Source: a virus. Taken from it: 42,716 bases of DNA. The DNA is taken from IMG/VR virus record IMGVR_UViG_3300030333_005352, positions 1-42,716 of that record; one strand, 5' to 3'. This document shows, piece by piece, positions 7,336-42,716 of this stretch (its first letter is position 1; the number at the start of each line of letters is the position of its first letter). A program made the translations under genes and the position numbers. The notes under the pieces are model-generated. The model was not told the DNA's origin. It was given only the letters and a program-made list of their open reading frames with translations, and did not search any database.

Positions 7336-7580
7336 TGTTCTTGCGGTATTAAAACTATATCTCCATCGTACCGAGGGCCTGAGACTCTGGATGTTAAACG
7401 TAGAATCTCTCTCCCTATAGAACGGGTTGTTAATTCATACCAATGCTTATCAAAAGGAGGGCCCTCTATACCAAGACGTTCCCAGACTGTATAACAAAGA
7501 TGAATGCAATCAATGTAACCGTCGCGGCCATCAGATCCCAATCTATAAGGGACGCCTATTAGATCACTGCATTGCGACAT
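7209..7580 (-). CDS. NlpC/P60-like tail protein, probably degenerate at the active site
   Basis: A 123-residue protein in the position of lambda gpK-type tail peptidases, between a gpL-like and a gpJ-like gene. It keeps the N-terminal pattern GVPYRLGSDGRDGYIDCIHL with a candidate nucleophile Cys25, and GDIVLIP at 73-79 matches the strand before the catalytic histidine. The expected H-V/A-G triplet reads A-F-G (residues 84-86), so the usual histidine is absent; His98 is the nearest alternative. It could be an inactive structural relative or use another base. It overlaps the upstream gene by 17 bases and the downstream tail-tip gene by 127 bases. Family assignment is by motif and neighbours. 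Confidence 0.7.
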   Translation of the reverse strand: MSQCSDLIGVPYRLGSDGRDGYIDCIHLCYTVWERLGIEGPPFDKHWYELTTRSIGREILRLTSRVSGPRYDGDIVLIPQEQWAFGVVWNQGILYISHYSDAVMWSTPPCFANLHFFRLKSTS

Positions 7581-10866: not shown

Positions 10867-11385
10867 CTATGCCCTGGTGCTCTTAACAATCTTGAAACCT
10901 GCCCGCTTAAAACCCTTATTCAAGTCATTAATCAAAAAACGAGCCCTACCGTGACTTAAATAAATAGTAAACCAATCAGGGTCTTTAGAAGGAGGAGTTA
11001 TATCACCCCCTTTCTCTCTTACTTCAGCGGCATGCTGAGCATAAGTGACAGGATCGCCGTCCTTACCAGGCATAGTCGCCGCTGGTTCATTAATGACAAA
11101 ACCTGCATATTCAACTGCGTTTCCAATGTACAAGGCTTGCTTAAGTGCCCCAAAAACCATTACATGTTTGGCCGGAGGTAACCTCCCTAAACCTCCGTCC
11201 CCTTCAATACGCTCCTCTGTAGGAGCTATAGGTTTGGTGTCTATTTTCCATCTTTCCTGAAAGCTACCCGTCCACCAAGGGCCCTCGTGTTGCAAAGAAG
11301 TATGTATTCTTACAGCTGCTTTGCTACGCGCCAGGATTGTGGCTTCCTCAATGTCGTAAACCAAATCCGATAGGTCTTTAGGCAT
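10867..11385 (-). CDS. HK97 gp10-like neck or tail-completion protein
   Basis: A 172-residue protein. An N-terminal helix (residues 1-30) is followed by PWWTGSFQERWKI, a motif of the HK97 gp10 type where a tryptophan/glycine turn precedes a long strand. NAVEYAGFVINE then matches the characteristic strand NxxxYAxxxE of that family. Two basic C-terminal helices follow. It overlaps the tail terminator gene by 8 bases. It lies in the standard head-to-tail series adaptor, closure, terminator, gp10-like. Expected role: joining the head and tail. Confidence 0.65.
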   Translation of the reverse strand: MPKDLSDLVYDIEEATILARSKAAVRIHTSLQHEGPWWTGSFQERWKIDTKPIAPTEERIEGDGGLGRLPPAKHVMVFGALKQALYIGNAVEYAGFVINEPAATMPGKDGDPVTYAQHAAEVREKGGDITPPSKDPDWFTIYLSHGRARFLINDLNKGFKRAGFKIVKSTRA

Positions 11386-11806
11386 TAGCGGTAAAGTCGC
11401 AACTGACTACACTTAAGTGATGGCTATTTGCATCATTTCTGACAGACGTTGGACCTGCAATCTCGGATACTCTCGGCGTTACTGAATAAGTATCTGAATA
11501 ATCAGATGCATTAACTGAAATAAGACCATCTATAACTGACTCCGCTATGGCGGACGCTACTGCACTTCCTTTGTTCGCAGGAGTCATGATCCCACATCTT
11601 ATGGACCCACTGTAATAATCTACAGCCGCCCCTTGAGGCTGAGATGTCGCTTGGTCAAAATCCAGGCTCACCATTACGTACTTCTTGGTTTTACCAGGAG
11701 TCGTAAATGGCATGTTGTCAAAAACAACCGTTACTGTTGCGTCAGCATTATTAACTGCTGTTTTTATTGCAGTTTCAAATGCAGCACGGGCCTTAACTAA
11801 CGTCAT
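11378..11806 (-). CDS. Tail terminator protein
   Basis: A 142-residue protein with alpha-beta-beta layout. It starts with a helix (MTLVKARAAFETAIKTAV), then strands TVTVVFDNMPF and KYVMVSLDF, and a later helix (AVASAIAESVIDGLIS). This size and layout match lambda gpU / tail terminator proteins, which form a hexamer that ends tail growth and joins the tail to the neck. Its ATG shares base 11806 with the stop of the preceding gene, indicating coupling. It precedes the gp10-like gene. Confidence comes mainly from gene order and secondary structure. Confidence 0.65.
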   Translation of the reverse strand: MTLVKARAAFETAIKTAVNNADATVTVVFDNMPFTTPGKTKKYVMVSLDFDQATSQPQGAAVDYYSGSIRCGIMTPANKGSAVASAIAESVIDGLISVNASDYSDTYSVTPRVSEIAGPTSVRNDANSHHLSVVSCDFTANA

Positions 11807-20055: not shown

Positions 20056-20370
20056 TTATATAGGTAGTTTAGCCCAGCCCGGAAAGGCTTTGTCTTTTAA
20101 AAACCATTTGAATTGTTTTTGGTAGATAGAGGGATGCCCAAAACAATTTAAAATCGCATTTAATCGACTTTTCGTCGTGGCTGTCTGCCAACCAGCATCT
20201 TTGATATGTAAAATTCCATGATTGGGCCAAATCTGAGCAATTAAATTTCCGTGAAGCCTTACGCAAATATCAAGGCTTTCAGAGCCAGAAACAGAAACGC
20301 TCGTGTTTCCACTCTGCCAATTTTTGTGAGCTTGAATCGCTCCAAGCATTTCTAGTTCAATTTTTCGCAT
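20056..20370 (-). CDS. Conserved hypothetical 104-aa protein of the cyanophage/pelagiphage type
   Basis: A 104-residue protein with the pattern MRKIELEMLGAI...NWQSGNTSV at the start, RLHGNLIAQIW in the middle, DAGWQTATTKSRLNAIL and a final FKWFL stretch. This arrangement is widespread in marine phages and occurs in many cyanophages, without a proven function. It follows a conserved leader containing TATAGT and AGTCCTTTA. It lies alone between short genes on the same strand, probably an early transcript. The start is fixed by the leader and the CACCC element directly before the ATG. Confidence 0.75.
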   Translation of the reverse strand: MRKIELEMLGAIQAHKNWQSGNTSVSVSGSESLDICVRLHGNLIAQIWPNHGILHIKDAGWQTATTKSRLNAILNCFGHPSIYQKQFKWFLKDKAFPGWAKLPI

Positions 20371-29982: not shown

Positions 29983-30261
29983 ATGGCCTTAAGACACGGA
30001 AACAAGACTTATTTACAGATCCTCCTCGATCCTCATAGAGCAAAACTAGTTATGCAACTTGCTAATAAGGAAGGTATTCGAGCAACAGCATGGATACGTA
30101 ATGCTGTATATAAGGAACTGGAACGCTCTGTTCAGGAATCTGAGTACAGGGTAGCCGAAGCAAAAGATGAAGCGCAGTGGCGTGAATCGGTTCTACGGCG
30201 TGTTCAAGGAAGAACATCTCAACAGATTAATGAAAATGAGGCAAGCGCAGAAATGCCCTAA
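29983..30261 (+). CDS. Ribbon-helix-helix-type DNA-binding protein
   Basis: A 92-residue protein. Residues about 6-45 (NKTYLQILLDPHRAKLVMQL then ANKEGIRATAWIRNAVYKEL) follow the strand, helix, helix plan of Arc/CopG-like proteins, with the strand TYLQILL placed to enter the major groove. The rest is a charged helical tail. It probably binds as a dimer to operators in phage control regions. It has its own promoter-like element GTAGTACAAT directly upstream. The end overlaps the zinc-ribbon gene. Confidence 0.75.
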   Translation: MALRHGNKTYLQILLDPHRAKLVMQLANKEGIRATAWIRNAVYKELERSVQESEYRVAEAKDEAQWRESVLRRVQGRTSQQINENEASAEMP

Positions 30262-30445
30262 GTGCAGTGGGTTGGCAGGTAGAGTGGTTTCTACATCCAG
30301 AGCTCGAGAAAATCTAGTAATAAGAAGGAGAAACTGCGAGAACTGCGGTCATCGTTGGTACACGATCCAGTACCCAGAAATTGTTGTTGACGGAGACAAA
30401 ATAAAATGGAAAGGAGCTAAAGCCGATTACGTCCCTTACCCGTAA
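30167..30445 (+). CDS. Zinc-ribbon protein
   Basis: A 92-residue frame whose second half has CPKCSGLAGRVVSTSRA and CENCGHRWYTIQYP. The four cysteines with an Arg-rich bridge (VIRRRNC) are the zinc ribbon of NrdR-like and transcription-factor-type proteins. No ATP-cone follows, so it is not NrdR. The start is unsure: ATG 30167 is the longest, ATG 30230 or 30236 removes the overlap with the preceding gene. It is the last plus-strand gene here and overlaps the convergent gene by 29 bases. Confidence 0.7.
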   Translation: MKRSGVNRFYGVFKEEHLNRLMKMRQAQKCPKCSGLAGRVVSTSRARENLVIRRRNCENCGHRWYTIQYPEIVVDGDKIKWKGAKADYVPYP

Positions 30446-30653
30446 CATTCTCCAACTCCATTTCTAGGTAACCAATTCTGTTTACAGCACGTTCCAGAAG
30501 TTTTGCCTGGTAACGAGATTGCTTAAGTAGTGCTACACAAGTTTCAAGGACGTGTTCTGAGTTTTCATGCGTCTCTAATTCGCGTGTCTCCCTTTCGATA
30601 GCAAGGGTTTCTTCGTCGGTGAACTTGACATTAAGCCAATCTTTGAAGTTCAC
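30417..30653 (-). CDS. Hypothetical 78-aa helical protein
   Basis: A 78-residue acidic helical protein (FKDWLNVKFTDEETLAIERE, ETCVALLKQSRYQAKLLERA). I chose the GTG at 30653 because it overlaps the upstream TGA as GTGA, with GGGAGG in front; the longer ATG frame from 30686 overlaps that gene by 37 bases. No family recognised. Confidence 0.6.
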   Translation of the reverse strand: MNFKDWLNVKFTDEETLAIERETRELETHENSEHVLETCVALLKQSRYQAKLLERAVNRIGYLEMELENVTGKGRNRL

Positions 30654-30832
30654 CTCCTCCCTCCCTGGCTCCAGATGTGAAACCATTCCGCTGTGCTCGT
30701 TAATAGCTCTGTAGGCAACTCATCATGAAGTCTACTTACAGCGGCATTATGATAAGGGTCACCAGAATCGTAATACTCGAAAAAATCACGTAGATGAAGA
30801 GGGAAGGTTACTCTCCCTTTTGCTTTTTCCAT
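30650..30832 (-). CDS. Hypothetical 60-aa protein, RHH-like start
   Basis: A 60-residue protein (MEKAKGRVTFPLHLRDFFEY), with a strand then helix reminiscent of ribbon-helix-helix proteins but without clear second helix. It overlaps the upstream gene by 25 bases and the downstream GTG by 4. Function unknown. Confidence 0.6.
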   Translation of the reverse strand: MEKAKGRVTFPLHLRDFFEYYDSGDPYHNAAVSRLHDELPTELLTSTAEWFHIWSQGGRR

Positions 30833-30984
30833 TTTTCATAAATCAAAATTTCCTGGTGCAGTCCCGTATAGAGCCCATGCTTCGGATGCTCTGGACGATG
30901 ACGACCATCCTCAATATATAACTGATCCATCCTCATTACACGCTTACGATCTTCTTCTAGCCATTCTGTTTTGTAGCCAGTCAT
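30808..30984 (-). CDS. Hypothetical 58-aa protein
   Basis: An ATG frame of 59 codons (MTGYKTEWLEEDRKRVMRMD, then YIEDGRHRPEHPKHGLYTG), rich in His and charged residues. AAGGA precedes the ATG, which overlaps the stop of the upstream gene (ATGA). No family recognised. Confidence 0.65.
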   Translation of the reverse strand: MTGYKTEWLEEDRKRVMRMDQLYIEDGRHRPEHPKHGLYTGLHQEILIYEKWKKQKGE

Positions 30985-31127
30985 TTTCCTTTTTTCTTTT
31001 TAAGGTCTTCTAATGCTGCCTGAAGAAGTTGAATTACGCCATTAGATTTTAATTTTGGATTCAATGAAATAATTTCGCTAGCAGCAGCGACAAGAATCCA
31101 GAACCAAGCTTGTCCAAGGAAATCCAT
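30981..31127 (-). CDS. Small membrane protein, 48 aa
   Basis: An ATG frame of 49 codons with one membrane segment near the start (LGQAWFWILVAAASEIISL) and a Lys-rich end (LEDLKKKKGK). It resembles tiny membrane proteins common in marine cyanophages. AAGGA stands 6 bases before the ATG. Its stop overlaps the next ATG. A role in lysis, as holin or helper, is possible but unproven. Confidence 0.65.
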   Translation of the reverse strand: MDFLGQAWFWILVAAASEIISLNPKLKSNGVIQLLQAALEDLKKKKGK

Positions 31128-31136
31128 TGGATTAAG

Positions 31137-31310
31137 TCATAGTCCTCTCAGCCTACGCCCATTTTGAGTCTTAGCGAGATCCTTCTCTATTTGATTCAAC
31201 CTCCTAAAAATTTCTCTTATATCTCTCTCTCGACGATTGCTGATGTTCGCAATCGCCATCAAGAAGGCTGAAGCCGTAGCACCAATAATTGCGGCCCACA
31301 ATTCATTCAT
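31137..31310 (-). CDS. Small membrane protein, 57 aa
   Basis: An ATG frame of 58 codons. One membrane segment (LWAAIIGATASAFLMAIANI) is followed by a basic coiled-coil-like end (RRERDIREIFRRLNQIEKDL). This N-terminal anchor and charged tail is the plan of several phage spanin or holin-like proteins. It faces the plus-strand 31339 gene across 28 bases, so the two share one control region. Confidence 0.65.
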   Translation of the reverse strand: MNELWAAIIGATASAFLMAIANISNRRERDIREIFRRLNQIEKDLAKTQNGRRLRGL

Positions 31311-31338
31311 TTAATGTTGGAGCGTTTCTCATTACATC

Positions 31339-31773
31339 ATGCCTGAAGTCACTCTTCCTGTGGACCCCGAAAAGGACAACAAGAAAAAGAAAAAAGGCAT
31401 CATGGGCAAACTTCAAGACATCACTCCTGATAAAGAAGAACAGATCCAAATCATTGGTGTTGCAGTGCGGCTAGGAATTGTTATTTGGAGCGGATTCTGC
31501 CTGACGTTGGCGTACATAGATGTACCTGGATTCCCTAAACAGACCTTCGATCCAACCTTCATTGCTTCGGTGTTTACATCTACCCTCACGACCTTCGGCG
31601 TCCAGGCAGCTAAAGATAAAGGCAAAAATGGAATCACAAAAGAAGAAATGGAGCAGATGATCGCTGCCAATAACCGATCAGGTGGAGAACAAATCATCCG
31701 TGTCCAAACTCCCCTTAAGATCGAAGGTGCTGAAGTCGTTCCAGCAACTCAGCCCCCTACAGAGGAAGCATGA
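31339..31773 (+). CDS. Membrane protein, holin candidate
   Basis: A 144-residue protein with a basic start (KKKKKGIMGKLQDI), a membrane segment at about 38-60 (IIGVAVRLGIVIWSGFCL), a second apolar part at about 70-90 (FIASVFTSTLTTFGVQ), and a soluble acidic/basic end. Two segments plus charged ends fit class II holins, but many phage membrane proteins share this plan. Its stop overlaps the next ATG (ATGA), the first link of the exported-protein operon. Confidence 0.5.
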   Translation: MPEVTLPVDPEKDNKKKKKGIMGKLQDITPDKEEQIQIIGVAVRLGIVIWSGFCLTLAYIDVPGFPKQTFDPTFIASVFTSTLTTFGVQAAKDKGKNGITKEEMEQMIAANNRSGGEQIIRVQTPLKIEGAEVVPATQPPTEEA

Positions 31774-32279
31774 AACGATTACTACCTTTGCTGTTATTAA
31801 TTGCAGCTCCCGTCAATGCAGGCGGAATTTCACACAAGATTGTGGCCAGTTCTCAAGCAACTGTTGATGGTGCCTATTCAATTTCAAATCGCGTAGGCAG
31901 CTCTTACTCCATGAGTTCAACAGGTGTTACAGCTACAGCGATGGGAAGGCTGACCGCTCCAGCATCTGCAACTGCGGCTGCTACTTGGGGGACTGCCGGG
32001 ACTTACGCCCAAACAACTGCAGGAACATCAACGTCCTTCACTGAGACGATGCTTCAAGGAGATGTAGTAGCTGCAATGGGTAGCGGTTCAACTGTTGCCT
32101 CTGGTGTAGTTGCTTCGCTTCCTGCTTTTGGAAATGCCACAACATATTCAGGAGGAGTAGCTGGAGACTTAGCAGCCACGATCACTTCGGTTAGCGGCGG
32201 GACTGTGACGCTGACTCCCGGTGGGGCGGGCACTTCCATCATAGGAAGTATCTCTAGTGAATTATCAATAGGAAGGTAA
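31770..32279 (+). CDS. Exported Ala/Ser/Thr-rich protein
   Basis: A 169-residue protein with a signal peptide: MKRLLPLLLLIAAPVNAGG, cleavage after VNA. The rest is rich in Ala, Gly, Ser and Thr with no Cys, and alternates short strands (FNATTYSGGV-type, TITSVSGGTVTLTPG), as in secreted structural or fibre-like proteins. It is coupled to the 31339 gene and followed 2 bases later by the 37-aa membrane peptide. I know no family. It would be released into the periplasm or outside the cell. Confidence 0.65.
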   Translation: MKRLLPLLLLIAAPVNAGGISHKIVASSQATVDGAYSISNRVGSSYSMSSTGVTATAMGRLTAPASATAAATWGTAGTYAQTTAGTSTSFTETMLQGDVVAAMGSGSTVASGVVASLPAFGNATTYSGGVAGDLAATITSVSGGTVTLTPGGAGTSIIGSISSELSIGR

Positions 32280-32281
32280 GA

Positions 32282-32395
32282 ATGGGGACGGCTATTGCGA
32301 TCTGCTTCATGGCAGCCTTTACTTCAGTGATGATTATTCTCATCATGGGATATAGTTTCATCCATAGAAATAATCATCCAAATCATCCTAGATGA
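32282..32395 (+). CDS. 37-aa membrane peptide
   Basis: An ATG frame of 38 codons. Residues 3-29 (TAIAICFMAAFTSVMIILIM) form a membrane helix, and the end is NNHPNHPR. Its TGA overlaps the next ATG (ATGA), and it follows the previous stop by 2 bases. The tight fit supports a real gene. Confidence 0.6.
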   Translation: MGTAIAICFMAAFTSVMIILIMGYSFIHRNNHPNHPR

Positions 32396-32829
32396 AACGC
32401 TTTTTAGCGTTATTTTTAATACTTAGCGGGGCTAATTTACCAGCCCTAAGTGTTCCAGTGGTCCCAAATTTCTCTGCGGGATCAACCAGTAGTCGAACTG
32501 AATCGACCCAGAAAACAAATGAAATCATCAAAACTTATTCGTATTCAACTGGCTATACCTACACGGTAGGAGGAACAAATATTAAATCAGGTGCAGACGC
32601 AATCAGCCCTGGCGCTCAACAAGTAGGGACACAAACAATTAATGGTGTTTCTTCTTCTTGGACAGGGATAACACTTCAAAGTAAACCAGTATGGCAACAG
32701 CATACAGCTGGGGCGGCTACTAATTTCCAAGAATCTTATATGGGTCCAGGTTTAACGTCAGTAGTGGATATAAATAGAACAGTAGAAATACAGTCTGTGA
32801 CTGAGAGCACCTCAGTGTTCACTCAATGA
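32392..32829 (+). CDS. Exported protein, 145 aa
   Basis: A 145-residue protein with signal peptide MKRFLALFLILSGANLPALS. The mature part is Ser/Thr-rich (SAGSTSSRTESTQKTNEI, SYSTGYTYTVGG) with an aromatic centre (SSWTGITLQSKPVWQQ) and no Cys. Coupled by ATGA to the 37-aa gene and to the next gene. It could be a periplasmic or surface protein. No family recognised. Confidence 0.65.
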   Translation: MKRFLALFLILSGANLPALSVPVVPNFSAGSTSSRTESTQKTNEIIKTYSYSTGYTYTVGGTNIKSGADAISPGAQQVGTQTINGVSSSWTGITLQSKPVWQQHTAGAATNFQESYMGPGLTSVVDINRTVEIQSVTESTSVFTQ

Positions 32830-33518
32830 TTAGAATAAGATATCTAGCGTTTGCGCTAACACTCTCTTGCTCTAATGCTTACGCTAATAACATTAATGCT
32901 ACTTCTAATCCTGTTGCAAATTCCAGTGGGTCAGTCACGAATTTCGCGGTACAAAATCTCACGGGGCGGATGCCAACTCAACAATTCGGAGGAGGTATAG
33001 TTTGTCAAGGTGGGGTATTATCAATACAGCCTTTTTTAAGCTCTAATGTGTCATTTACTAGACCACATGAGCTGTACTATATGGAACCACAATATTCAAC
33101 TTTAGATGTAAAAGGAGCTTTTGATGATGACGGGAATGACATTGGAGATGGAGAAGTAGACGAGCCAGGTAAAGTTCTTTTCATGAAGCCAGTAAGAACT
33201 GGACAAAAAGAAAACTTCGCGATAAGTCCTGGCATCTCTCTGAGTTGGAATATCCCACTAGACAGAAGAGCAAGGCGCTTATGTCTTAGAAGTGCTGAAG
33301 CTCAAGCGAATATATGGGAAGCTTCCTTGCAAGATAAACGACTTTCTTATGAATTAGGACGTATGAAAATATGTGCAGAACAAATGAAACTCGGAGTACG
33401 TTTTAAAGCGAACAGCCGTTTCTATAACCTCTGCGAGGACGTCGAATTAGTCAACGCTCCAGGTGTTTTGCCCAACCACAGACACCCTATTTCTTTAGAG
33501 AAGTCCAAAGGCGAATAG
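32826..33518 (+). CDS. Exported cysteine-containing protein, 230 aa
   Basis: A 230-residue protein with signal peptide (IRYLAFALTLSCSNAYA). The mature part has RMPTQQFGGGIVCQGG, PFLSSNVSFTRPHELYY, ISPGISLSWNIPLD, then a helical section LCLRSAEAQANIWEASLQ and KICAEQMKLGVRF. It carries four Cys after the signal, suggesting disulphide bonds in the periplasm. The helix resembles coiled TolC-type or spanin-like helices only loosely. Its end overlaps the convergent 33487 gene by 32 bases. Similar genes occur in cyanophages without known role. Confidence 0.65.
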   Translation: MIRIRYLAFALTLSCSNAYANNINATSNPVANSSGSVTNFAVQNLTGRMPTQQFGGGIVCQGGVLSIQPFLSSNVSFTRPHELYYMEPQYSTLDVKGAFDDDGNDIGDGEVDEPGKVLFMKPVRTGQKENFAISPGISLSWNIPLDRRARRLCLRSAEAQANIWEASLQDKRLSYELGRMKICAEQMKLGVRFKANSRFYNLCEDVELVNAPGVLPNHRHPISLEKSKGE

Positions 33519-34224
33519 CTCTGTTCCTCTCTCTTTGAGCAGCTACCTTCTCTCGATAGGACAGAGGCTTCTCTTTCTTTTTTAAAACCTTCTTTGATAC
33601 CTTCTTGACTACAGGTTTGACTATCTTCATCAAGAGTTGAGATGCTGGCCGAGCAGTCAGAACTAATGTCGCCGAAAGGAATGTTGTCGCTCCAACCGTG
33701 AGCACTTGAGTCGGTGGGGGTATGTAATTATTGACGACTTCTGGAACAGGAAGATTTCTCCAGACAGCTACACATTCTCCAACTTCATTCCGTCGATAAG
33801 ATTCAACCACTTTGAATTGATATTTCCCCTTAGCTCCTATCGGAATATCATCAGGAGCAGGGCATGGAAGTTGAAGGTTTAAATTCTGCTCTAATGAAAA
33901 TTCTTCCTGTTTAGGAAGTTGTGTTTTCGTCTTCGCGGGTTCTACATAGTCCGAGATTTTTAAAGGCTGAGGAACGACTTTGATTCCTGGAGTTATATCA
34001 GGGGCTAGAAAGGCAGGAGCACCCCCGTCGCATAAGACGACATTCCCATCAGGATCTAAATCGTAATTTGCCGTTCCAGATGTTGGAGTATCTCTTGTTA
34101 ATGCACATGGCATATCGATAATCGGGAATCCCAAAGGAGGCCCAATCGCGACAGGAGGTTCAATGATGATCGGGGAAGGGATCTCCCTAACTTCGGGAAC
34201 TTTGGGTTCCTTTATCTCTGTCAA
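33487..34224 (-). CDS. Proline-rich membrane protein, 245 aa
   Basis: A 245-residue protein. The long N-terminal part is Pro/Glu-rich and extended (IKEPKVPEVREIPSPIIIEP), with Cys in the PCALTRDTP and PCPAPDD parts. A membrane segment lies at about 174-195 (VLTVGATTFLSATLVLTA), and a very basic cytoplasmic end follows (KKVSKKVLKKKEK). The only start upstream of residue 39 is a TTG overlapping the nuclease stop (TTGA). Pro-rich periplasm-spanning layout is reminiscent of TonB-type or spanin proteins. It probably belongs to the envelope module. Confidence 0.6.
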   Translation of the reverse strand: MTEIKEPKVPEVREIPSPIIIEPPVAIGPPLGFPIIDMPCALTRDTPTSGTANYDLDPDGNVVLCDGGAPAFLAPDITPGIKVVPQPLKISDYVEPAKTKTQLPKQEEFSLEQNLNLQLPCPAPDDIPIGAKGKYQFKVVESYRRNEVGECVAVWRNLPVPEVVNNYIPPPTQVLTVGATTFLSATLVLTARPASQLLMKIVKPVVKKVSKKVLKKKEKPLSYREKVAAQRERNRAIRLWTSLKK

Positions 34225-34736
34225 GGAATGAAGTCAGTTACTTTCATTAACTGCTTTTTAGGCTCATTTGGTTCTACTAATGTTCCCTTTGACCTCCGTA
34301 TCGCTTTTAATTCTTCAAAGTTTTTGTTCTTTGCCCCTCCGTCATAAGGCCATGCGTAACCCTCGGCAATCATCTGCTCATTTAAAGAGACAACATCGTC
34401 ACCCACATAGAGCCAACCTAAAAGACGACCATACTTACCAGTAGCAGAATCGCCAAGCTCAGTACGAACCATAAGCCCACGCCCTTTTGCTGCGGCATCT
34501 CGTAACTTATTGGTGAGCCAGTTGGTTGCATCGATTCCGAGAGGCTTTTCAACCTCATGGTCTGACGTTCTTTTCTCGGGGGTATCAACACCAGCAACCC
34601 TCACTCTTTGTTTAATACTTAGATCAAACCCTAAGTTAATGGTGATATCAATGGTATCCCCATCGATAATCCGATCTACTGAAGCAATTTTGTAATTCCA
34701 ACAGCTAACTCTGTTAGGTGGTGTCATGAATCCCAT
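34221..34736 (-). CDS. Staphylococcal-nuclease-type thermonuclease
   Basis: A 171-residue protein with the SNase core. VDRIIDGDTIDI provides Asp25 and Asp27, RVRVAGVDTPE provides Arg46, Asp51 and Glu54, and GKYGRLLGWLYV provides Arg104, matching the acid and arginine residues of the S. aureus enzyme. No signal peptide is seen, so it acts in the cytoplasm, probably cutting host DNA. The ATG follows the upstream gene by 2 bases. The gene is coupled by overlap to the proline-rich membrane protein. Such nucleases occur in other cyanophages. Confidence 0.9.
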   Translation of the reverse strand: MGFMTPPNRVSCWNYKIASVDRIIDGDTIDITINLGFDLSIKQRVRVAGVDTPEKRTSDHEVEKPLGIDATNWLTNKLRDAAAKGRGLMVRTELGDSATGKYGRLLGWLYVGDDVVSLNEQMIAEGYAWPYDGGAKNKNFEELKAIRRSKGTLVEPNEPKKQLMKVTDFIP

Positions 34737-34738
34737 GA

Positions 34739-34954
34739 TTATTTACCGAAAGAAGGGGTAGTTGACTTCCCAACAGCACCACCTGTCATTGATGGCATTT
34801 TGACTGATTTAGTGATGGATTTGATAATTTCAGTCTTGATCTTTTCATGGGTCTTTGGATTAGTGGCCCAACGATAAGAAAGGATCCCTCCTGCACCTAT
34901 TCCAAGAACAAGAACAAATGAAATAGCACTTAAAGCATTAAAAACTTTTTGCAT
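34739..34954 (-). CDS. Small membrane protein, 71 aa
   Basis: A 71-residue protein (start MQKVFNALSAISFVLVLGIG) with one N-terminal membrane segment (to about residue 25) and a basic Lys/Ser end. I chose ATG 34954 because it keeps the common start of this family; an ATG 15 bases upstream lies in the hairpin. The start follows directly on the T-run of the upstream terminator, so little mRNA is expected unless termination is incomplete. No function known. Confidence 0.6.
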   Translation of the reverse strand: MQKVFNALSAISFVLVLGIGAGGILSYRWATNPKTHEKIKTEIIKSITKSVKMPSMTGGAVGKSTTPSFGK

Positions 34955-34994
34955 GAAAAAACCCGCCATCCGATGACCAGAATAGCGGGCTTTT
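34955..34994 (-). terminator. Terminator after the exported barrel gene, abutting the next start codon
   Basis: Read leftward, AAAAGCCCGC pairs with GCGGGTTTTT (one G-T) around an 18-base loop, followed by T residues that end at the ATG of the 34739-34954 gene. It follows the 35042-35404 gene. Confidence 0.8.
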
Positions 34995-35041
34995 GTTTGT
35001 GTGAGGAGTGGATAGTTGTCGCTACCCACTCATAACTTTAC

Positions 35042-35404
35042 CTAGAAGTTCCAGGTTAGACCTGTCTTCAAGTTGTAAGAGTTATCACCAACCTCAGCGG
35101 TCAGGATTTCTCCCTCTGCATAAACGTTGATCTTCTCAGAAAGATCGACATCACCACCGATCTTGCCACCTAATTGAGTGGTGCCGTCCTCACCATCATC
35201 GGGATTGACGAAAGTTGGTCCTACTTGTGCATAAACACCAGCTCTGTCGCCAATGTTTGTCTTGTAACCTATGGCAGCGTTTATAGTGCTCCCAACATAA
35301 TCTGAACCGTAGAATCCACTGTTTCCTTCTACGTTAATATAGGGCCCCGCTACGGCAGCCGAACCAGAAACCAACGCAGCAGAAGCTACTAGAAGTGCTT
35401 TCAT
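35042..35404 (-). CDS. Exported barrel-like protein, 120 aa
   Basis: A 120-residue protein with signal peptide (MKALLVASAALVSGSAAVAG). The mature part alternates strands with Gly and aromatic residues (GFYGSDYVGSTINAAIGYKT, VYAQVGPTFVNP, GTTQLGGKIGGDVDLS) and ends in a strand with terminal Phe (LKTGLTWNF), the outer-membrane beta-barrel signature. Such short barrel-like proteins are frequent in cyanophages. GAGGAG stands 5 bases before the ATG. It is a separate unit with its own terminator. Expected location: outer membrane; function unknown. Confidence 0.75.
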   Translation of the reverse strand: MKALLVASAALVSGSAAVAGPYINVEGNSGFYGSDYVGSTINAAIGYKTNIGDRAGVYAQVGPTFVNPDDGEDGTTQLGGKIGGDVDLSEKINVYAEGEILTAEVGDNSYNLKTGLTWNF

Positions 35405-35448: not shown

Positions 35449-36054
35449 TTAGGCAGCAGGAGCAGTAGGCCAATCTGGCAAGTGGGGATTTGGATTTGTG
35501 ATCATTTTGCCAGTGGGAACCCCGTCTTTGTCTTCTTCTATTTGACTTGGAGCCTCGACTAGTTCTTTTAATTTCGTTGTAGTTGTCGCTTCGTCGATTT
35601 TTGCTTGTCTTTCATTGCACTTAACTCTTACTTGCTGTCTATACGTCAACCATTCACTAGAAATAGCTTTCCCATCAGTTTCTGATGCTCTAATTACCAT
35701 CCAATCAGAACTTGAAAGTAGCCCCTTGGCTGTCTCGTCTTGTTGAGCCTTTTTATAAGTCTTTAGCCCTTTCTCTATTAATTGATTTCCATCAGCATCT
35801 TTTATTTTCTCTCCAGTTTCCGCATCAACAGCTTCTTTGTCCTCTAATTGCTTGTCTATAAGTGTTTTCCCGTCAGAACTCCATCCCCAATAATATTGTC
35901 GATCATATGAAACCTCTGGTGCGACTTCTTCTATTCCAAGCCCCGACCATAAGCTTCTGTTGGCAACATTAGAAATCCACCCCGCAGGGTACACAACATC
36001 ATTGACAGTAAATCCTGTGTCTGGTTGGGGGTTTCCGTTCCGTGTGTAAGGCAT
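35449..36054 (-). CDS. Tail-fibre-assembly-like protein, 201 aa
   Basis: A 201-residue protein. It starts with NGNPQPDTGFTVNDVVYPAG and a Trp-rich part, then a charged middle, and then SSSDWMVIRASETDGKAISS and EWLTYRQQVRVKC. That W/YRQ/R pattern is the tail-fibre-assembly (Tfa-like) element. The end is acidic and Pro-rich (MITNPNPHLPDWPTAPA). It directly follows the 1334-aa adhesin, as Tfa genes follow fibre genes. Expected role: folding or capping of the adhesin tips. Confidence 0.65.
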   Translation of the reverse strand: MPYTRNGNPQPDTGFTVNDVVYPAGWISNVANRSLWSGLGIEEVAPEVSYDRQYYWGWSSDGKTLIDKQLEDKEAVDAETGEKIKDADGNQLIEKGLKTYKKAQQDETAKGLLSSSDWMVIRASETDGKAISSEWLTYRQQVRVKCNERQAKIDEATTTTKLKELVEAPSQIEEDKDGVPTGKMITNPNPHLPDWPTAPAA

Positions 36055-36089: not shown

Positions 36090-39000
36090 TCACCTTGCAC
36101 GAGTGTACTTAAATGGGAATTCTGAAAACGCGATATATACATAATGTCCGCCATTCGCATTCACAGCGGCACCTGTATGACGCACTTTAAACCCAGTTGA
36201 GAGGATGTCTGCTGGATAACCTGCAGCAACAGCATCACTTTCTACAGCATTAGTGTTGACGACTAAATTCAAACCATAAGGGTTGTGTGGATCGCGAGCG
36301 GTGTCATATACCTCCCAATTACCAGTGGCATCAGTTCGCTTGAAGATGAGATATCTTGGCCTAAAACCTACATGAACACATGGTCCATCTGTTGATCCAT
36401 TGCCCGAATAACTTCCAAACCTACTAAGGCCTGTCTTTTCACTAAAGGCATAGGCCACATAATTTCCTGTATTCCCATTTACATTGCCAGAAGTACCTAA
36501 TGCAAATGTTGATGTATTTGCATCTGGTTTAACACTGTTCCAATGAACAGAGCCACTTGAACCGTCACCGTCATTATGTGTGTCATTAAATATTAATCTA
36601 CCTAGTCCACTGTGGGCAGTCAGCTCATGGTGCCAAACGATCCAATTACCATCACCACCACCACCGGTGCCTCTTTGTTTAATAATTAAAAGTTGACATT
36701 CTGCACCTAAACCGTGAGCAACCGTTCCAGTGCTGCCTGTTCCTGTCCAGCTAACAATAGACATACCATTTGTGGTATTAGCTCTAACCGTAGACGATAT
36801 TGTCCCGCCGCTAGGGGTTGAATTACTTCCACCCATATTCCAAGCCCAACTAACATAACTACCACTCGAAGCATTGCCCCCAGCGTTCCCTCCATAAGTA
36901 AAACCATCACTGTCAAAACTCTTTAATTCATCTGCATCTGTTCCTTCGGCGTTGCTACTAGAACTAGACAAATATTTAGTTGCTCCTCTTATTTGGTCGA
37001 AAAGATTTTGACCATTTGCACTATCACGACGTTTTACCCAAACGAGATCAGGAGCAAACCCAAAGCCACTTACAGCATGATCTGATCCTGTTCCTGTATA
37101 GAGAACAACATTAAAGTGTTCCAAAGGTTTTGCAATTGAAGGATCAGCAAGGAAAGCTGTTGAACAAGGATTGAAGCCTGAAGGAGCTGAATATGCGAAG
37201 GGTCTTTGTCCTGCATTTAAAGCGGAATTCACAGCATCAGCACCACCTGCACCAACTGTTGGGGCATATGGAGCATAATCAGCACTTACTGTCCACAAAG
37301 GATTACTGCCACTTGCAGGATCCCCTGATGCCATCCAAGTTCCATTTTTAGAGAACCATAATTTTCTACTATCTGCATCAAATGCAATACCTATAATGTC
37401 ATTAGTAGTGGCTGTTGGCAGACCAGATCCGGCCATGCTCCCATTGTGATAATACTGACCATTTGTAAGAACAATATAACTATTATGAGGAGAGTCTCCT
37501 GGAGGCGAATTCGTTATGCTTTGAGTAGAAAGACTTCCTATCCCATACTGTTGAATAGTGGAGTTAGTTAGAGTTATTTCGAAATACCATTTACCACTAG
37601 GGAAACCAAAAGTACTTGTAACTCGTTTCTGAGTGCCGCTACTCGCATCTAAATTTCCATTAGTCAAAGTACAGCCACTTGCCAACGGGTTCCACGTTGC
37701 ATAATTGCCGCTTACTTGTCCACCTGTCCCAGTATTATCCGCAGAATCACCATTAACTGGATGGTCTAAAAGTGAATCTGTATCTCGGGCAATTAGTCCA
37801 TTTTGTCCTGACATCACTGGGTTAAAATTCACGGTATATTTCGCCACTCCTTTGTATACACGGAGATCATTTAAATATATATTGGAATGTTGAATCGAAC
37901 CATTATAAGAACCAACATACCAAGATGTAGTTTGAGTCCAGTCTTTACTATCAGAATAAGAACCAGAATTCTGTATGCCATCGATATACCATCTTGTCGT
38001 CCCAAGGTTTCTAACTAACGCGCAGTGAGTCCATTTGCCTTGAGTTATCGTATTATCTGTGTCTAATAAACCAGCAACGAGTGCATGATTATAACGAAGT
38101 TTTCCACTTACAAAAAATAATTGGATTCCACCGGGATTTGCAAAAACATCTTTATTATTTGGGCTAGATTCATTAAGATATAACCAAAATTCTATTGTAA
38201 AATTACCAGTACCGAAAGCAAAATTACTACTTCCAGCAACTGTTAGATAGTCACCAGTTCCATCAAATTTAGCTGACGAACCATAAAACTTACTCTCTGC
38301 ACTAGATGCGGTTGCATCTCCATGACTAGTAACAGTTATTGCTGTGCCACCTGTATTTACATGATCATGCTCATCTGTAAGAACATCACCAGGAATTGCT
38401 AATACAAGACCACTGCCACCGGTCGTCCCCGCAAAGCTGTCTGTGCGATAGCCAGACCCTTTAGTTGCACCATATGTATCAGTTGTATTGTAAAAAGGTA
38501 AGGCACCATTTGCGGCTGAAACAGATGTAGGGCCACCTGTTACTACTTGTAGGTTTACAGGCCTAAAGTCTTTTCTGACAGCAGGAGTAAAATCACTAGT
38601 GTATTTACAGACGCCTTTATATACACGTAAATCATTCATAAACCCATTAAAGTTACCGTCTGTAGCTCCACTAGGTTCGGCAGCACCTATAGCTACTCCG
38701 GTACTGGCCGTTGTAGCTGTAACTGTACTTGTGACTTCGGCTATTTCCGAACCGTCAACAAAGGCTCTTAATTTATCATCAGAACCATTGTAAGTTACAG
38801 CTACATGATGCCATTGTTTGGCGCCCATGTTATGGGCAACATTTATATCAGGACTTGCAAAATCATCAGCATCGAATATTAGATTAGTACTACCTATAGC
38901 AAAGTCGAAACCATCATTGCTGTTCTGTGGTCCCCAACCAATAATCCACATTGCCGTTGGATAACCGTTTCCAGCGGGCATTTCATTTAGATATACCCAA

Positions 39001-40094
39001 GCTTCAATTGTAAAACTACCAGTACCCATATCAAAGTCTGTACCAGCATTAGTAGCATCCATCCATAATCTTTGATTAGCAGACCCATTAAAAGCAAGAC
39101 TTGAACCGTAGAATTTACTTTGAGTTGAGGAGACTGCAACTGATCCAACATTCGATAAAGTTTTAGCTGAACTGCCAGTATTAACGTGATCATGTTCATC
39201 AGTAAGAACATCACCAGGCAAAGCAAATATTAATCCCGTTCCATCTGTGGTTCCCGCAGAACTATCTGTGCGATAACCAGAACCCTTAGTTACACCATAA
39301 GCATCGGTAGTGTTATAAAAAGGCAGGCCTCCATTTGCCGCACTGATTGTCCCTGCCCCAGTGGAATCCTTACCTAACGTTGTTGATGTTGAACCAGAAT
39401 TATCAGCAAATTCAAGATGGAAACCATTAGTACCATAACTCCCTGTGTATCCTTTAGGAATAAGCTGCTCAGTGGTTGAATCTGTCTCAGTAAATGAACC
39501 TGGGGTTAGTTGTGAACCATCAATAAAATATACATCTGCCATATAACCATCCAAGCCATGACCATCTGGCTGGGCGCCGACATAGAAAACTGGGCAAGTA
39601 GAAGTAGCTCCGTTTACCCATGTATCGAGATTTTGTGATGGGTCTGTCTCTGTACTAAAAGATGTTTCCTCAACACCATTTATATATAACTTCAATCTAT
39701 TGCTAGCTGTTCCTTGAGTTGTATCTACTGCAACTACTAGATGCATCCAAGCAGAAGGATCTCTAAATTTTCGATTAGTTTGATATTGGAGTTGATAACC
39801 ACCTCCAGTTTGTTGCCCAATCCAAAAAGTATCGTCTGTCTGCCATCCAGCTAAAAACCAATTACCTGAAGTACTGCCAGCTGGTCCCTGTGCAAAAAGA
39901 TAATCATATTGACCTACTCCTCCCCTTTTTGCCCAACAACTAAAAGTCCATTTCTTTCTATCCCCTGTTCTCGTGATATTCCTTCTTAAGTGAGCACTAT
40001 TGCCATTGTTAAAACGTAGAGACCTTCCACCCGCTTCAGAAGTAGCAACCGCTGAATGGAGAAGAAGAGGATTAGCAGCACCAGGAATTCCCAT
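36090..40094 (-). CDS. Large lectin-type adhesin / host-recognition protein, 1334 aa
   Basis: A 1334-residue virion protein made of repeated carbohydrate-binding modules. The first LamG/ConA-like unit is at about 25-200 (RKKWTFSCWAKRGG, LKLYINGVEETSF). Further LamG units follow at about 330-500 (GSFTIEAWVYLNEMP) and 595-745 (GNFTIEFWLYLNESS). A SPRY-like unit follows at about 820-930 (FPSGKWYFEITLT, LWFSKNGTWM), then several DUF7483-like units (FAPDLVWVKRRD, FRPRYLIFKRTD) to the end. This composition is typical of host-range proteins in marine phages. AAGGA precedes the ATG; the fibre gene ends 3 bases upstream. It is expected at the tail tip binding surface glycans. Confidence 0.8.
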   Translation of the reverse strand: MGIPGAANPLLLHSAVATSEAGGRSLRFNNGNSAHLRRNITRTGDRKKWTFSCWAKRGGVGQYDYLFAQGPAGSTSGNWFLAGWQTDDTFWIGQQTGGGYQLQYQTNRKFRDPSAWMHLVVAVDTTQGTASNRLKLYINGVEETSFSTETDPSQNLDTWVNGATSTCPVFYVGAQPDGHGLDGYMADVYFIDGSQLTPGSFTETDSTTEQLIPKGYTGSYGTNGFHLEFADNSGSTSTTLGKDSTGAGTISAANGGLPFYNTTDAYGVTKGSGYRTDSSAGTTDGTGLIFALPGDVLTDEHDHVNTGSSAKTLSNVGSVAVSSTQSKFYGSSLAFNGSANQRLWMDATNAGTDFDMGTGSFTIEAWVYLNEMPAGNGYPTAMWIIGWGPQNSNDGFDFAIGSTNLIFDADDFASPDINVAHNMGAKQWHHVAVTYNGSDDKLRAFVDGSEIAEVTSTVTATTASTGVAIGAAEPSGATDGNFNGFMNDLRVYKGVCKYTSDFTPAVRKDFRPVNLQVVTGGPTSVSAANGALPFYNTTDTYGATKGSGYRTDSFAGTTGGSGLVLAIPGDVLTDEHDHVNTGGTAITVTSHGDATASSAESKFYGSSAKFDGTGDYLTVAGSSNFAFGTGNFTIEFWLYLNESSPNNKDVFANPGGIQLFFVSGKLRYNHALVAGLLDTDNTITQGKWTHCALVRNLGTTRWYIDGIQNSGSYSDSKDWTQTTSWYVGSYNGSIQHSNIYLNDLRVYKGVAKYTVNFNPVMSGQNGLIARDTDSLLDHPVNGDSADNTGTGGQVSGNYATWNPLASGCTLTNGNLDASSGTQKRVTSTFGFPSGKWYFEITLTNSTIQQYGIGSLSTQSITNSPPGDSPHNSYIVLTNGQYYHNGSMAGSGLPTATTNDIIGIAFDADSRKLWFSKNGTWMASGDPASGSNPLWTVSADYAPYAPTVGAGGADAVNSALNAGQRPFAYSAPSGFNPCSTAFLADPSIAKPLEHFNVVLYTGTGSDHAVSGFGFAPDLVWVKRRDSANGQNLFDQIRGATKYLSSSSSNAEGTDADELKSFDSDGFTYGGNAGGNASSGSYVSWAWNMGGSNSTPSGGTISSTVRANTTNGMSIVSWTGTGSTGTVAHGLGAECQLLIIKQRGTGGGGDGNWIVWHHELTAHSGLGRLIFNDTHNDGDGSSGSVHWNSVKPDANTSTFALGTSGNVNGNTGNYVAYAFSEKTGLSRFGSYSGNGSTDGPCVHVGFRPRYLIFKRTDATGNWEVYDTARDPHNPYGLNLVVNTNAVESDAVAAGYPADILSTGFKVRHTGAAVNANGGHYVYIAFSEFPFKYTRAR
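38361..38517. repeat. Linker repeat in the adhesin gene, copy 2
   Basis: This stretch and 39187-39350 encode nearly the same linker (LPFYNTTD, KGSGYRTDS, PGDVLTDEHDHVNTG). It separates successive LamG units and reads as a recent module duplication. Confidence 0.75.
39187..39350. repeat. Linker repeat in the adhesin gene, copy 1
   Basis: Partner of 38361-38517. Bases differ at many third positions, while the encoded series is almost unchanged, so the repeat is kept at protein level. Confidence 0.75.
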
Positions 40095-40097
40095 AAA

Positions 40098-42716
40098 TCA
40101 ATCCTTGACGTCTTTAATGAGTTGACAAGCAATAGAAGTTGATGTCAGTACTGTATAGACAAGAACGTCTACTGCCCCAGCAGTTGTAGACAATGCTGCA
40201 TTTGCAGAACCAGTTGGGAAGTGCCAGTAGGTTCCCCAGCCAGCGACGACTGGGCTGCTCGCGTGCTGCGTAATCTTAATCGCCCCACTAGCTCCTGGTG
40301 TAAGTGCAGACGGGTTGGCCAAAGTAAATGCTCCAGTGAGCTGACCAATAACGAAATTGTTAGTGGTATTTAAATTTAAAGAGACTGAAGAACCATAAGA
40401 AATAGATGTGATTGTTCCACTTTGAGTGGCTGTAAAGGTTTGAGCTGTTCCCAAGGATGCATCACCGACAGCAGTCTTTCCATCTAGAAGATTTAACTCT
40501 GCTGCTGTAGTTGTGACTGCCGTCCCACCGATCTTCAATTTGTCTTTGACGATGTCTATTACAGCTCCGCCTGCTGTCTTTAAAGCATCATCAGATTCAT
40601 CCCAAAGAAGATAAGCGCCTGCAGTGGCACCAAACATTTTTACGTCGTAGCCCGTGTCATCTTGACCCCACGTAACAGCGCCCGTAAAAGTTCCTCCAGC
40701 GGTCGGCATTTTGGTTGAGTCAGTTGCAGAGTCATCAGCCCAAACCAAAGTGGTTGGTGTTGACGCATCACACTTGAGAACTTTGTTTGCTGCTGGTGCG
40801 GTTGCAGGAAGCGACAACGTGTAAGACGAAGTGCTCCCCATATCGGTTGGAGCCTTTAGGCCGATATAAGCCGAACCGTTGGAATCAGCTTCATATAGGT
40901 TCAACTGTTTATCGTTATCTAAATCGATGTTTCCCGTCATTACTCCACCCGCCTTTGGCAGAGCGGCATCTGCTACGTCTTTTGTTACTTTTACTGCATT
41001 AGCTGTAGCCGCTAAAGATGTGGAAGTGGAAGAAGTTGAATCACTAAGTTGTAATGCACCCTGAGCAGATGTTGAACCTGCTGCTAACTTACTTCCCGCG
41101 ATTGCAGCAGAAGCATTTATATCTGCGTTAACTATTACACCACTAGCTATAGCAGCAACACCTGCATTTGTAATAGTAACATCACCTGAAATTGTCTGAG
41201 CCGTGGGCACATTGCTGCCGTTCCCGATCAATACTTTTCCGTCTGCTAATGCCGCTAATTTGCTGTAATCAATCGCTGCATTTGTCGCTACATCCGCATT
41301 TACAAGTGAAGCGTTTCCACTAACAATTAAATTTCCTGTTTGATCAGGAATAGTTACAGTTCTATCTGCAGAGGTGGGATCGGCTGGGGCTAAAGTTATT
41401 TCATACGCATTCGCTGTTGCACCTTCAAAAACTAACGATCCAGACGCCCCAATTAATAACTCACCTGTGATTTCACCGCCTGCTTTAGGTAACTTTTCAG
41501 TCGCTACTTCTTGCAGCGCATCTTGTACATTACTAGAACTAATATCACCGTATGGGGTAAAACCAACGTTGCTTGCGACCTGTCCGCTTACAGTCGCAGA
41601 TAAGTCAATTTCTTGCCAACTACTACCCGAAGCGTTTGTTACTCCCAGAATGTAATCAGGTGGATTAAGTGCAACTACAGGTGCTGGACTTGAGGGAGTT
41701 CCTGCTGTCGCAACGACCACATATACACCATCAACAGAAGAAGAAGCTGTTGGCAAGTTAGAACCAACAACAAGGCCAGCCGCAGATCCTGCAGAGGTTA
41801 CAGAGGCCATTTTACTTGTACTTGCGTTAAAAGTACCGCCGTTAACTAATGATCCTTTGGTCAGAGTCGTGATCGCCTGCCAAGCGTTTCCGTCCCATAA
41901 ATATGCATCTTCAGCAACAGAGTCAAAACATAATTGACCCGTAAATTGTGCAGTAGGAAAACCCGCCTGGGCTATAGATTGAATAATACAAGTAGAACTA
42001 TCTGCTAGCTTTGTTCCATCAACACCGTCAGCAGGAAGTCTTGCAGCATCTAGCGCTCCACTCGTTATTTTTGCCGTAGACAAATCGGGAATATCCGCCT
42101 CGACTAAATCTGCTCCAGCCGTGACAAGTCCGTCAGCGTTATATGTAATCTTTGCTTTTGTATCTGCAGAAACTGAGTTATTAATAGTAATAGCACCGCT
42201 ACCATCTACAGCAATACCACCCGCCGAATCTACTTTTACTCCACCGACAGCGCTACTAGTTGCTATAGGTAATTCGCCACTACTAGTGACTAATGTCTGG
42301 GTTTCTGTTACTAAGCCTTGAGCATCACATTTAACAACTGAAAAAGTTGATTGAGCTGTAACACTATTATCTATAGCTACAAGCCCATCGCCATCAACAG
42401 TTAGACCCCCTCCATCTACTTTTACTGCTCCGATATCAGAAGATGTTGCTTTTGCACTCGCTAGGTCAGCAGCAAGAATTGTTCTTGATGTAGGGACTGC
42501 CGCCGATCCTGAATTAGGCCCAGCGAGAAAAGTATTAGCGTTAAAAGCATCAATAGTTGCATCTATGGTGTACTGATTACCTGAAGGAGTTCCACCTGCT
42601 GTCGCTGTGATATTGACTAAATTTCCAGTAGCTCCAACGATGGAATTAACCGAAGCTCCTGCGGCTGTTTCTTTCCAGGCTGATCCGTCCCATACGTAAA
42701 CCCTATGTCCATCTGC
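40098..42716 (-). CDS. Tail fibre protein, C-terminal part (continues from the left end)
   Basis: The frame is open from the right edge of the window to the stop at 40100-40098. A start at TTG 42083 is not needed, because the sequence upstream remains coding (DGLVTAGADLVEADIPDL before STAKITSGALD). Counting the overlap once, the complete protein has 990 residues. It contains the marine fibre phrases LPKAGGEITGELLIG, LPKAGGVMTGNIDL and TTTAAELNLLDGKTAVG, arranged as repeated shaft units, and a C-terminal beta domain (FVIGQLTGAFTLANPS, WGTYWHFPTGSANAAL). It precedes the adhesin gene by 3 bases. Role: shaft and tip of the tail fibre. Confidence 0.8.
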   Translation of the reverse strand, partial: ADGHRVYVWDGSAWKETAAGASVNSIVGATGNLVNITATAGGTPSGNQYTIDATIDAFNANTFLAGPNSGSAAVPTSRTILAADLASAKATSSDIGAVKVDGGGLTVDGDGLVAIDNSVTAQSTFSVVKCDAQGLVTETQTLVTSSGELPIATSSAVGGVKVDSAGGIAVDGSGAITINNSVSADTKAKITYNADGLVTAGADLVEADIPDLSTAKITSGALDAARLPADGVDGTKLADSSTCIIQSIAQAGFPTAQFTGQLCFDSVAEDAYLWDGNAWQAITTLTKGSLVNGGTFNASTSKMASVTSAGSAAGLVVGSNLPTASSSVDGVYVVVATAGTPSSPAPVVALNPPDYILGVTNASGSSWQEIDLSATVSGQVASNVGFTPYGDISSSNVQDALQEVATEKLPKAGGEITGELLIGASGSLVFEGATANAYEITLAPADPTSADRTVTIPDQTGNLIVSGNASLVNADVATNAAIDYSKLAALADGKVLIGNGSNVPTAQTISGDVTITNAGVAAIASGVIVNADINASAAIAGSKLAAGSTSAQGALQLSDSTSSTSTSLAATANAVKVTKDVADAALPKAGGVMTGNIDLDNDKQLNLYEADSNGSAYIGLKAPTDMGSTSSYTLSLPATAPAANKVLKCDASTPTTLVWADDSATDSTKMPTAGGTFTGAVTWGQDDTGYDVKMFGATAGAYLLWDESDDALKTAGGAVIDIVKDKLKIGGTAVTTTAAELNLLDGKTAVGDASLGTAQTFTATQSGTITSISYGSSVSLNLNTTNNFVIGQLTGAFTLANPSALTPGASGAIKITQHASSPVVAGWGTYWHFPTGSANAALSTTAGAVDVLVYTVLTSTSIACQLIKDVKD
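42618..42716. repeat. Right copy of the terminal direct repeat
   Basis: Identical to bases 1-98, with C instead of T at the last base. That base changes one codon (Thr to Ala) in the fibre. Collapse of this copy gives a circular molecule of about 42,617 bases. Confidence 0.9.

Follow-up and report, generated by a model that had tools for sequence, protein, structure and literature searches.

How does a phage open its host cell when its genome encodes no recognisable endolysin? The question is raised by positions 30417-35404 of IMG/VR virus record IMGVR_UViG_3300030333_005352, a stretch of 42,716 nucleotides (the window, meaning all of the DNA analysed) from a siphovirus of marine cyanobacteria. 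A sequence-only reading had treated 30808-35404 as one envelope module with ten small membrane or exported proteins and no known function, possibly serving a non-enzymatic lysis route, envelope modification or a superinfection barrier. Instead of a single orphan operon, the locus holds two head-to-head units: a predicted lysis operon on the minus strand (31310-30417), in which the endolysin is reduced to a stand-alone N-terminal domain, and beside it a long-known cyanophage cassette of hypothetical proteins (31339-35404), which nearly excludes lysozyme across phage records. That the two together form a phage exit locus, with the cassette helping to breach the envelope, is an evenly balanced proposition.

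Genome completeness and gene content

The window carries a 98-bp direct terminal repeat (1-98 and 42618-42715), and joining its ends at this repeat restores a single open reading frame (ORF) for a 992-amino-acid (aa) tail protein; on these two grounds the genome is very probably complete. No near-identical DNA was found in the phage collection. With the exception of the 37-aa ORF, the small ORFs of the locus are genes and not chance frames, because their order is kept in the nearest relative (L002) at 70-79% aa identity and synonymous divergence (pS) lies well above nonsynonymous divergence (pN). All ORFs reported earlier for 30808-35404 were recovered in place, among them four signal-peptide proteins (169, 145, 230 and 120 aa), small membrane proteins, a two-segment holin candidate and a proline-rich membrane protein, and of the four tight plus-strand joins three are ATGA overlaps and one is a gap of 2 bases, as described. 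The exported proteins have an N-terminal hydrophobic stretch ending in AxA that is kept in 30-40 relatives. The picture of an interval made up entirely of membrane or exported products holds for most genes; it passed over an SNase-type nuclease (34221-34736), which is neither, and the gene at 30808-30984, at the edge of that interval, is present and encodes a soluble product of 58 aa.

A predicted lysis operon on the minus strand

The minus-strand unit comprises five genes, listed here in order of transcription.

31137..31310, minus strand: TM57, 57 aa, first gene of the operon, with an N-terminal membrane segment and a charged helix
30981..31127, minus strand: TM48, 48 aa, phrog_22542, a single-segment, holin-like protein
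30808..30984, minus strand: soluble protein of 58 aa; most relatives have it at the opposite end of the module, following the outer-membrane protein (OMP) gene
30650..30832, minus strand: p60, 60 aa, the N-terminal domain (FFxYY...W) of cyanophage endolysins as a separate protein, without a catalytic domain
30417..30686, minus strand: p89, 89 aa, last gene of the operon, conserved beside the endolysin in relatives

Judged by homology and gene order, 31310-30417 is a cyanophage lysis operon. A TM57-like gene, TM48 and the endolysin follow one another in the same order and on one strand in the cyanosiphoviruses S-CBS1, S-CBS3, S-CBS4 and KBS-S-2A, where the TM48 relative lies directly upstream of the endolysin; the window differs in that its endolysin gene has kept the N-terminal domain only, with no catalytic domain found. 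Among 80 metagenomic (IMG/VR) TM48 loci, 54 have an endolysin on the same strand, in 52 of these 54 at -13 to +378 bp downstream. TM48 is thus a small, holin-like membrane gene at an endolysin locus, and its pore activity is predicted. Counterparts of TM57 are 80-84 aa proteins (phrog_26178 type) in the same place, preceding TM48 or the endolysin, to which its similarity is weak but significant; the counterpart in S-CBS4 matches the Rz-like spanin family phrog_739 weakly (2e-4), a match that TM57 of the window lacks. TM57 and TM48 may act as holins and p60 may bind the cell wall. The gene for p57 (phrog_2738) was considered as a further lysis-specific gene and rejected, as T4-like cyanophages of either kind commonly have it.

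In phage T7, the holin gene 17.5 and the spanin genes 18.5/18.7 lie between tail fibre and terminase. TM48 relatives occupy the same genome position in the T7-like phages WH11-B and S-B28, between the tail fibre and the small terminase (TerS), as does a compact version of the cassette in T7-like P-SSP3; the likeness to T7 is one of position, sequence homology to its lysis proteins not having been shown.

An endolysin reduced to its N-terminal domain

Endolysins with differing catalytic parts have N-terminal domains to which p60 aligns, at scores reached by 0/1000 shuffles. S-PM2 and many relatives pair this domain with C39, S-CBS3 with GH24 plus M15, and KBS-S-2A with GH19 (GH19 and M15 assigned by sequence inspection). 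In 54/55 relatives found via phrog_848, the p60 homologue continues into a C39 peptidase domain (PF13529, E=2e-11); the complete p60-C39 ORFs are 237-251 aa long, most with an initial hydrophobic stretch, and in the 54 uncultured relatives the median distance from the C39 peptidase to DUF6450 is 476 bp. The gene ends directly after the p60 domain in the window and in L002, L110 and L111 (59-60 aa in the latter three). p60 is like the C39-type endolysins of S-PM2, P-SS2 and phrog_10051 in its FFxYY domain and unlike them in having no papain-like catalytic domain. Compared with L002, its pS exceeds its pN, which points to purifying selection. The likeliest account is that the catalytic domain of the endolysin was lost in the window clade, the N-terminal domain being kept under selection.

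No match to PF00959 (Phage_lysozyme), Peptidase_C39_2, Amidase_2, Peptidase_M15_4, SLT or the phrog_10051 endolysin was obtained anywhere in the window genome, and the muralytic endolysin gene of a canonical holin-endolysin cassette is represented there only by the 60-aa domain. The earlier statement that the window has no endolysin therefore stands at the level of families and overlooked the trace at 30650-30832, an ORF that extends over the left edge of 30808-35404. A standard endolysin among the unnamed genes, which the sequence-only reading had given as evidence against itself, was looked for and none was found. Pfam and PHROG scans outside the locus (tail, head and replication genes, several unknown ORFs and gap ORFs) revealed no hidden endolysin, and the frame spanning the genome ends, considered as another candidate, is a tail protein.

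A cyanophage cassette beside the operon

The second unit contains nine genes.

31339..31773, plus strand: DUF6450 (PF20048; T4-GC 218 family), 144 aa, holin-like, two hydrophobic segments and a charged C-terminal tail
31770..32279, plus strand: phrog_564 (T4-GC 237 family), 169 aa, exported, a distant paralogue of DUF6322
32282..32395, plus strand: 37-aa membrane peptide, seen in this window only (found in 0/81 relatives)
32392..32829, plus strand: DUF6322 (PF19847; phrog_650; T4-GC 236 family), 145 aa, exported, predicted with low confidence to form a long beta-hairpin
32826..33518, plus strand: p848 (phrog_848; T4-GC 235 family), 230 aa, exported, with four invariant Cys, an acidic DDDGN...GDG..D.PG loop and a long C-terminal helix
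33487..34224, minus strand: p570 (phrog_570; T4-GC 234 family), 245 aa, proline-rich, with four invariant Cys, one C-terminal membrane segment and a basic tail
34221..34736, minus strand: SNase-type nuclease (PF00565, E=3.1e-10; phrog_452), beside the cassette only in close relatives of the window
34739..34954, minus strand: phrog_568 (T4-GC 414 family), 71 aa, single-segment membrane protein with an internal ATG start, as in its homologues; its 'plasmid stability' function comes from annotation alone
35042..35404, minus strand: Phage_OMP (PF24653; phrog_417), 120 aa, exported, an outer-membrane-like small beta barrel of cyanophages (115 bits against a Pfam gathering cut-off of 27)

In their account of the cluster, Sullivan et al. 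2010 (PMC3037559) report T4-GC 218/219/234/235/237, often with a plasmid-stability gene, in 15/16 T4-like cyanomyoviruses (not S-PM2), and propose that these hypothetical genes are clustered for functional reasons and share a function; that account names neither the function nor a link to lysis. Window DUF6450, phrog_568, phrog_570, phrog_848, DUF6322 and phrog_564 are homologous to S-SM1 genes with or adjoining these numbers, the S-SM1 annotation mapping the cassette genes to T4-GC 218, 414, 234, 235, 236 and 237, and the clustering of T4-GC 218, 234, 235, 237 and plasmid-stability families recurs in the window. The window differs in being a siphovirus, in its strand layout, with DUF6450 heading a phrog_564-DUF6322-phrog_848 operon, and in having an SNase gene in the place of T4-GC 219; no T4-GC 219 member was found, and the nuclease has no match to the S-SM1 T4-GC 219 gene region. 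The divergent starts of TM57 and DUF6450 are only 28 bp apart (31311-31338), with similar spacing in relatives, so the promoters must sit within the opposing genes.

The cassette occurs in about 420 phage records of myovirus, podovirus and, here, siphovirus type; each of the four cassette proteins searched was found in 400-449 phage records, nearly all cyanophages. The same set is also present in the podovirus MedDCM-OCT-S37-C6, and a large uncultured group keeps the constant order p89-p60/C39, DUF6450-phrog_564-DUF6322-phrog_848, phrog_570-OMP. Several of these records share the portal family of the window, and 1/22 records checked (MedDCM) has a T7-type RNA polymerase. Only three matches to phrog_848 were found in 84,980 cellular genomes (two Bacteroidetes metagenome-assembled genomes and one Prochlorococcus single-cell assembly), and a host origin was rejected, these being probably viral contigs. 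In P-SSP3 (L109, 5914-6624), a single open frame joins the phrog_848 homologue to a copy of the phrog_2738 protein (57 aa) at its C-terminal end; uncultured relatives have the phrog_2738 gene immediately before that of the C39 endolysin.

Structure predictions were of low confidence. AlphaFold gave phrog_848 beta strands and a 42-residue helix (pLDDT 60.7) and DUF6322 a long beta-hairpin (pLDDT 71.8). A TolC-like outer-membrane channel, which a pattern in the sequence close to the C-terminal helix of phrog_848 had suggested, was considered and gained no support (no Pfam or PDB sequence match; TolC at a non-significant Foldseek E=4). A pore-forming beta-hairpin for DUF6322 was set aside, pore-forming proteins being among the Foldseek matches of a weak model and none of them significant. 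A single-protein scan for DUF6322 relatives returned none. The acidic loop of phrog_848 (residues 98-116, window 33117-33173; FDDDGNDIGDGEVDEPG) resembles thrombospondin type-3 calcium-binding repeats.

Near-exclusion of cassette and lysozyme

Cassette and lysozyme rarely meet. The cassette is present at 16 of the 80 TM48 loci, 0 of which combine it with a full endolysin; where both signals were detected (three loci), the endolysin part is a p60 remnant only. A fused query of the S-PM2 lysozyme and phrog_848, run against 50,697 phage records, matched 913 records at 915 places, so that at most two records hold both S-PM2-type lysozyme and phrog_848. Among Synechococcus-named records, 366 have a T4-like gp44 and 367 have either marker. 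The first 27 records split cleanly (12 with phrog_848 versus 13 with a recognised endolysin), in a sample picked by these very features, and the broader count of 50,697 records weighs more. No C39, amidase_2, M15_4 or accepted SLT match was obtained in the 13 cassette records (of 28 examined), and in the 12 of these 13 also searched with GH24 and phrog_10051 the single match was to GH24, in a 925-aa ORF of S-SM1 that looks like a tail lysozyme. S-PM2, the cassette-free cyanomyovirus of the 2010 set, has both a GH24 lysozyme and a C39 peptidase. We note that the 73-aa 'putative lysin' annotated in S-PM2 (L009, ~11250-11718) covers just the last part of an open frame, and that GH24 lysozyme homology reaches ~80 codons upstream of its annotated start.

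A strict rule of cassette or endolysin was rejected as a general statement, 54 uncultured relatives having both the cassette and a C39 peptidase. The C39 domain is paired with a glycan-cleaving domain in S-PM2, S-CREM1 and P-SS2, and the C39 protein stands alone where the cassette is present; it would fit this arrangement if the cassette supplied the partner activity of C39.

Proposed mechanism and alternative explanations

A lysis role would build on the homology, gene order, conservation, export signals, absence of the endolysin catalytic domain and lysozyme avoidance described above. The exported proteins phrog_564, DUF6322 and phrog_848 would gather in the periplasm and outer membrane late in infection. 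On firing, TM48/TM57 and DUF6450, the holin-like members, would make the inner membrane permeable, and the exported set, with disulfide-capable Cys in phrog_848 and phrog_570, would then breach the wall and outer membrane, the cassette either replacing the work of endolysin and spanins or complementing a separate peptidase. Activities and timing in this scheme are inferred. The lysis route suggested by the sequence-only reading thus gains a genomic link (the endolysin neighbour of TM48, the p60 domain and the cassette site in P-SSP3). Its 'non-enzymatic' character is not shown: relatives have a C39 peptidase beside the cassette, and an unrecognised enzyme could also sit within the cassette.

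Several observations weigh against an exit locus. p60 and TM57 match lysis families weakly, the cassette proteins match no known lysis family, and the phrog_848 and DUF6322 models are low in confidence with no significant match to solved structures. T4-like phages have the cassette close to their replication genes. Both phrog_848 and a recognised endolysin are absent from WH11-B and S-B28, and S-CAM7 has a lysozyme together with a weak phrog_848 fragment (E=8.7e-7; the only blurred case). The 54 uncultured relatives have a C39 peptidase too, so the cassette does not just stand in for lysis enzymes of every sort. Exclusivity tracks phage lineages and may go back to a few ancient events; most counted records are close relatives and the counts ignore kinship. 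A purely historical origin of the lysozyme avoidance, in which few lineages gained one or the other with no functional link, is somewhat unlikely: lysozyme-bearing T4-like records do fall in few named lineages (S-PM2, S-CREM1, DSL-LC, S-SRM01, S-CAM7/ACG-2014f and S-CRM01) and C39 peptidase and cassette occur together at 54 loci, but the same pattern is seen in three phage types (myo-, podo- and siphovirus) and at single TM48 loci.

The same genes have been read here in three further ways. The cassette might alter the envelope of the infected cell, for superinfection exclusion or surface remodelling, unneeded for lysis and merely neighbouring the lysis operon. Four exported proteins including one like an outer-membrane barrel would suit such a role, as would the position near replication genes in T4-like phages and the spread of the OMP family, which is found in 449 phage records and can sit apart from the cassette (~35 kb away in S-CAM22). 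We consider this unlikely, since it explains neither why lysozyme is almost completely avoided, nor the mutual exclusion at TM48 loci, nor the location in P-SSP3. Lysis of the host by something outside the locus, a tail enzyme or host autolysins, with p60 and the cassette incidental, is improbable; the candidate, encoded at 7209-7580 in the tail module, is a protein of 123 aa in which an NlpC/P60-like Cys motif is seen by eye, but it has no Pfam match, no clear catalytic His and only a weak minor-tail match, and p60 is under purifying selection. It is less probable still that these are virion-associated or adsorption proteins of tail or fibre. In both the window and MedDCM-OCT-S37-C6, the neighbours of the cassette include large fibre genes and one resembling a tail-fibre-assembly gene, and the best, non-significant matches of the DUF6322 model include phage tail and collar proteins; a virion role is argued against by the conserved Sec signal peptides, which fit poorly with cytoplasmic virion assembly, and by a cassette composition constant across three tail types. 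Placement in particles had also been named earlier as counter-evidence, and the records of S-SM1 and S-TIM5, whose virions have been analysed, give the cassette proteins no virion label (annotation only).

Neighbouring genes

Next to the locus, a 1334-aa protein (36090-40094) has three LamG-like lectin stretches, a SPRY domain and DUF7483 and is probably a fibre or receptor-binding protein. The product of the gene that follows it (35449-36054) is similar to tail fibre assembly proteins. A 92-aa protein (30167-30445) has a zinc-ribbon-like CPKC...CENC motif and overlaps the preceding gene by ~95 bases. Elsewhere in this siphovirus, 20056-20370 encodes a Kyano_Gp96 family protein (PF23790, E=1e-30), a family of T4-like cyanophages.

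Implications for cyanophage lysis

Cyanophage lysis frees a notable share of ocean primary production. The parts of the locus belong to known families whose function is unknown; what appears to be new is the link of the cassette to a lysis operon, a complete genome in which the endolysin survives as a single free-standing domain, a siphovirus with the cassette, and the near-exclusion with lysozyme. The broader claim is doubtful: that most marine T4-like cyanophages, some T7-like cyanophages and the window siphovirus lyse via an exported cassette that replaces a lysozyme-type endolysin, either through a new wall-cutting enzyme, with phrog_848 as first candidate, or through no dedicated enzyme. 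None of the 13 cassette records examined shows a recognised endolysin. A virus-specific cassette that nearly excludes lysozyme offers a short, named list of candidate genes. If the cassette is not the lysis system, the missing lysis enzyme of these phages stays a sharply posed question; if it is, it would account for host lysis by a large group of ocean viruses.

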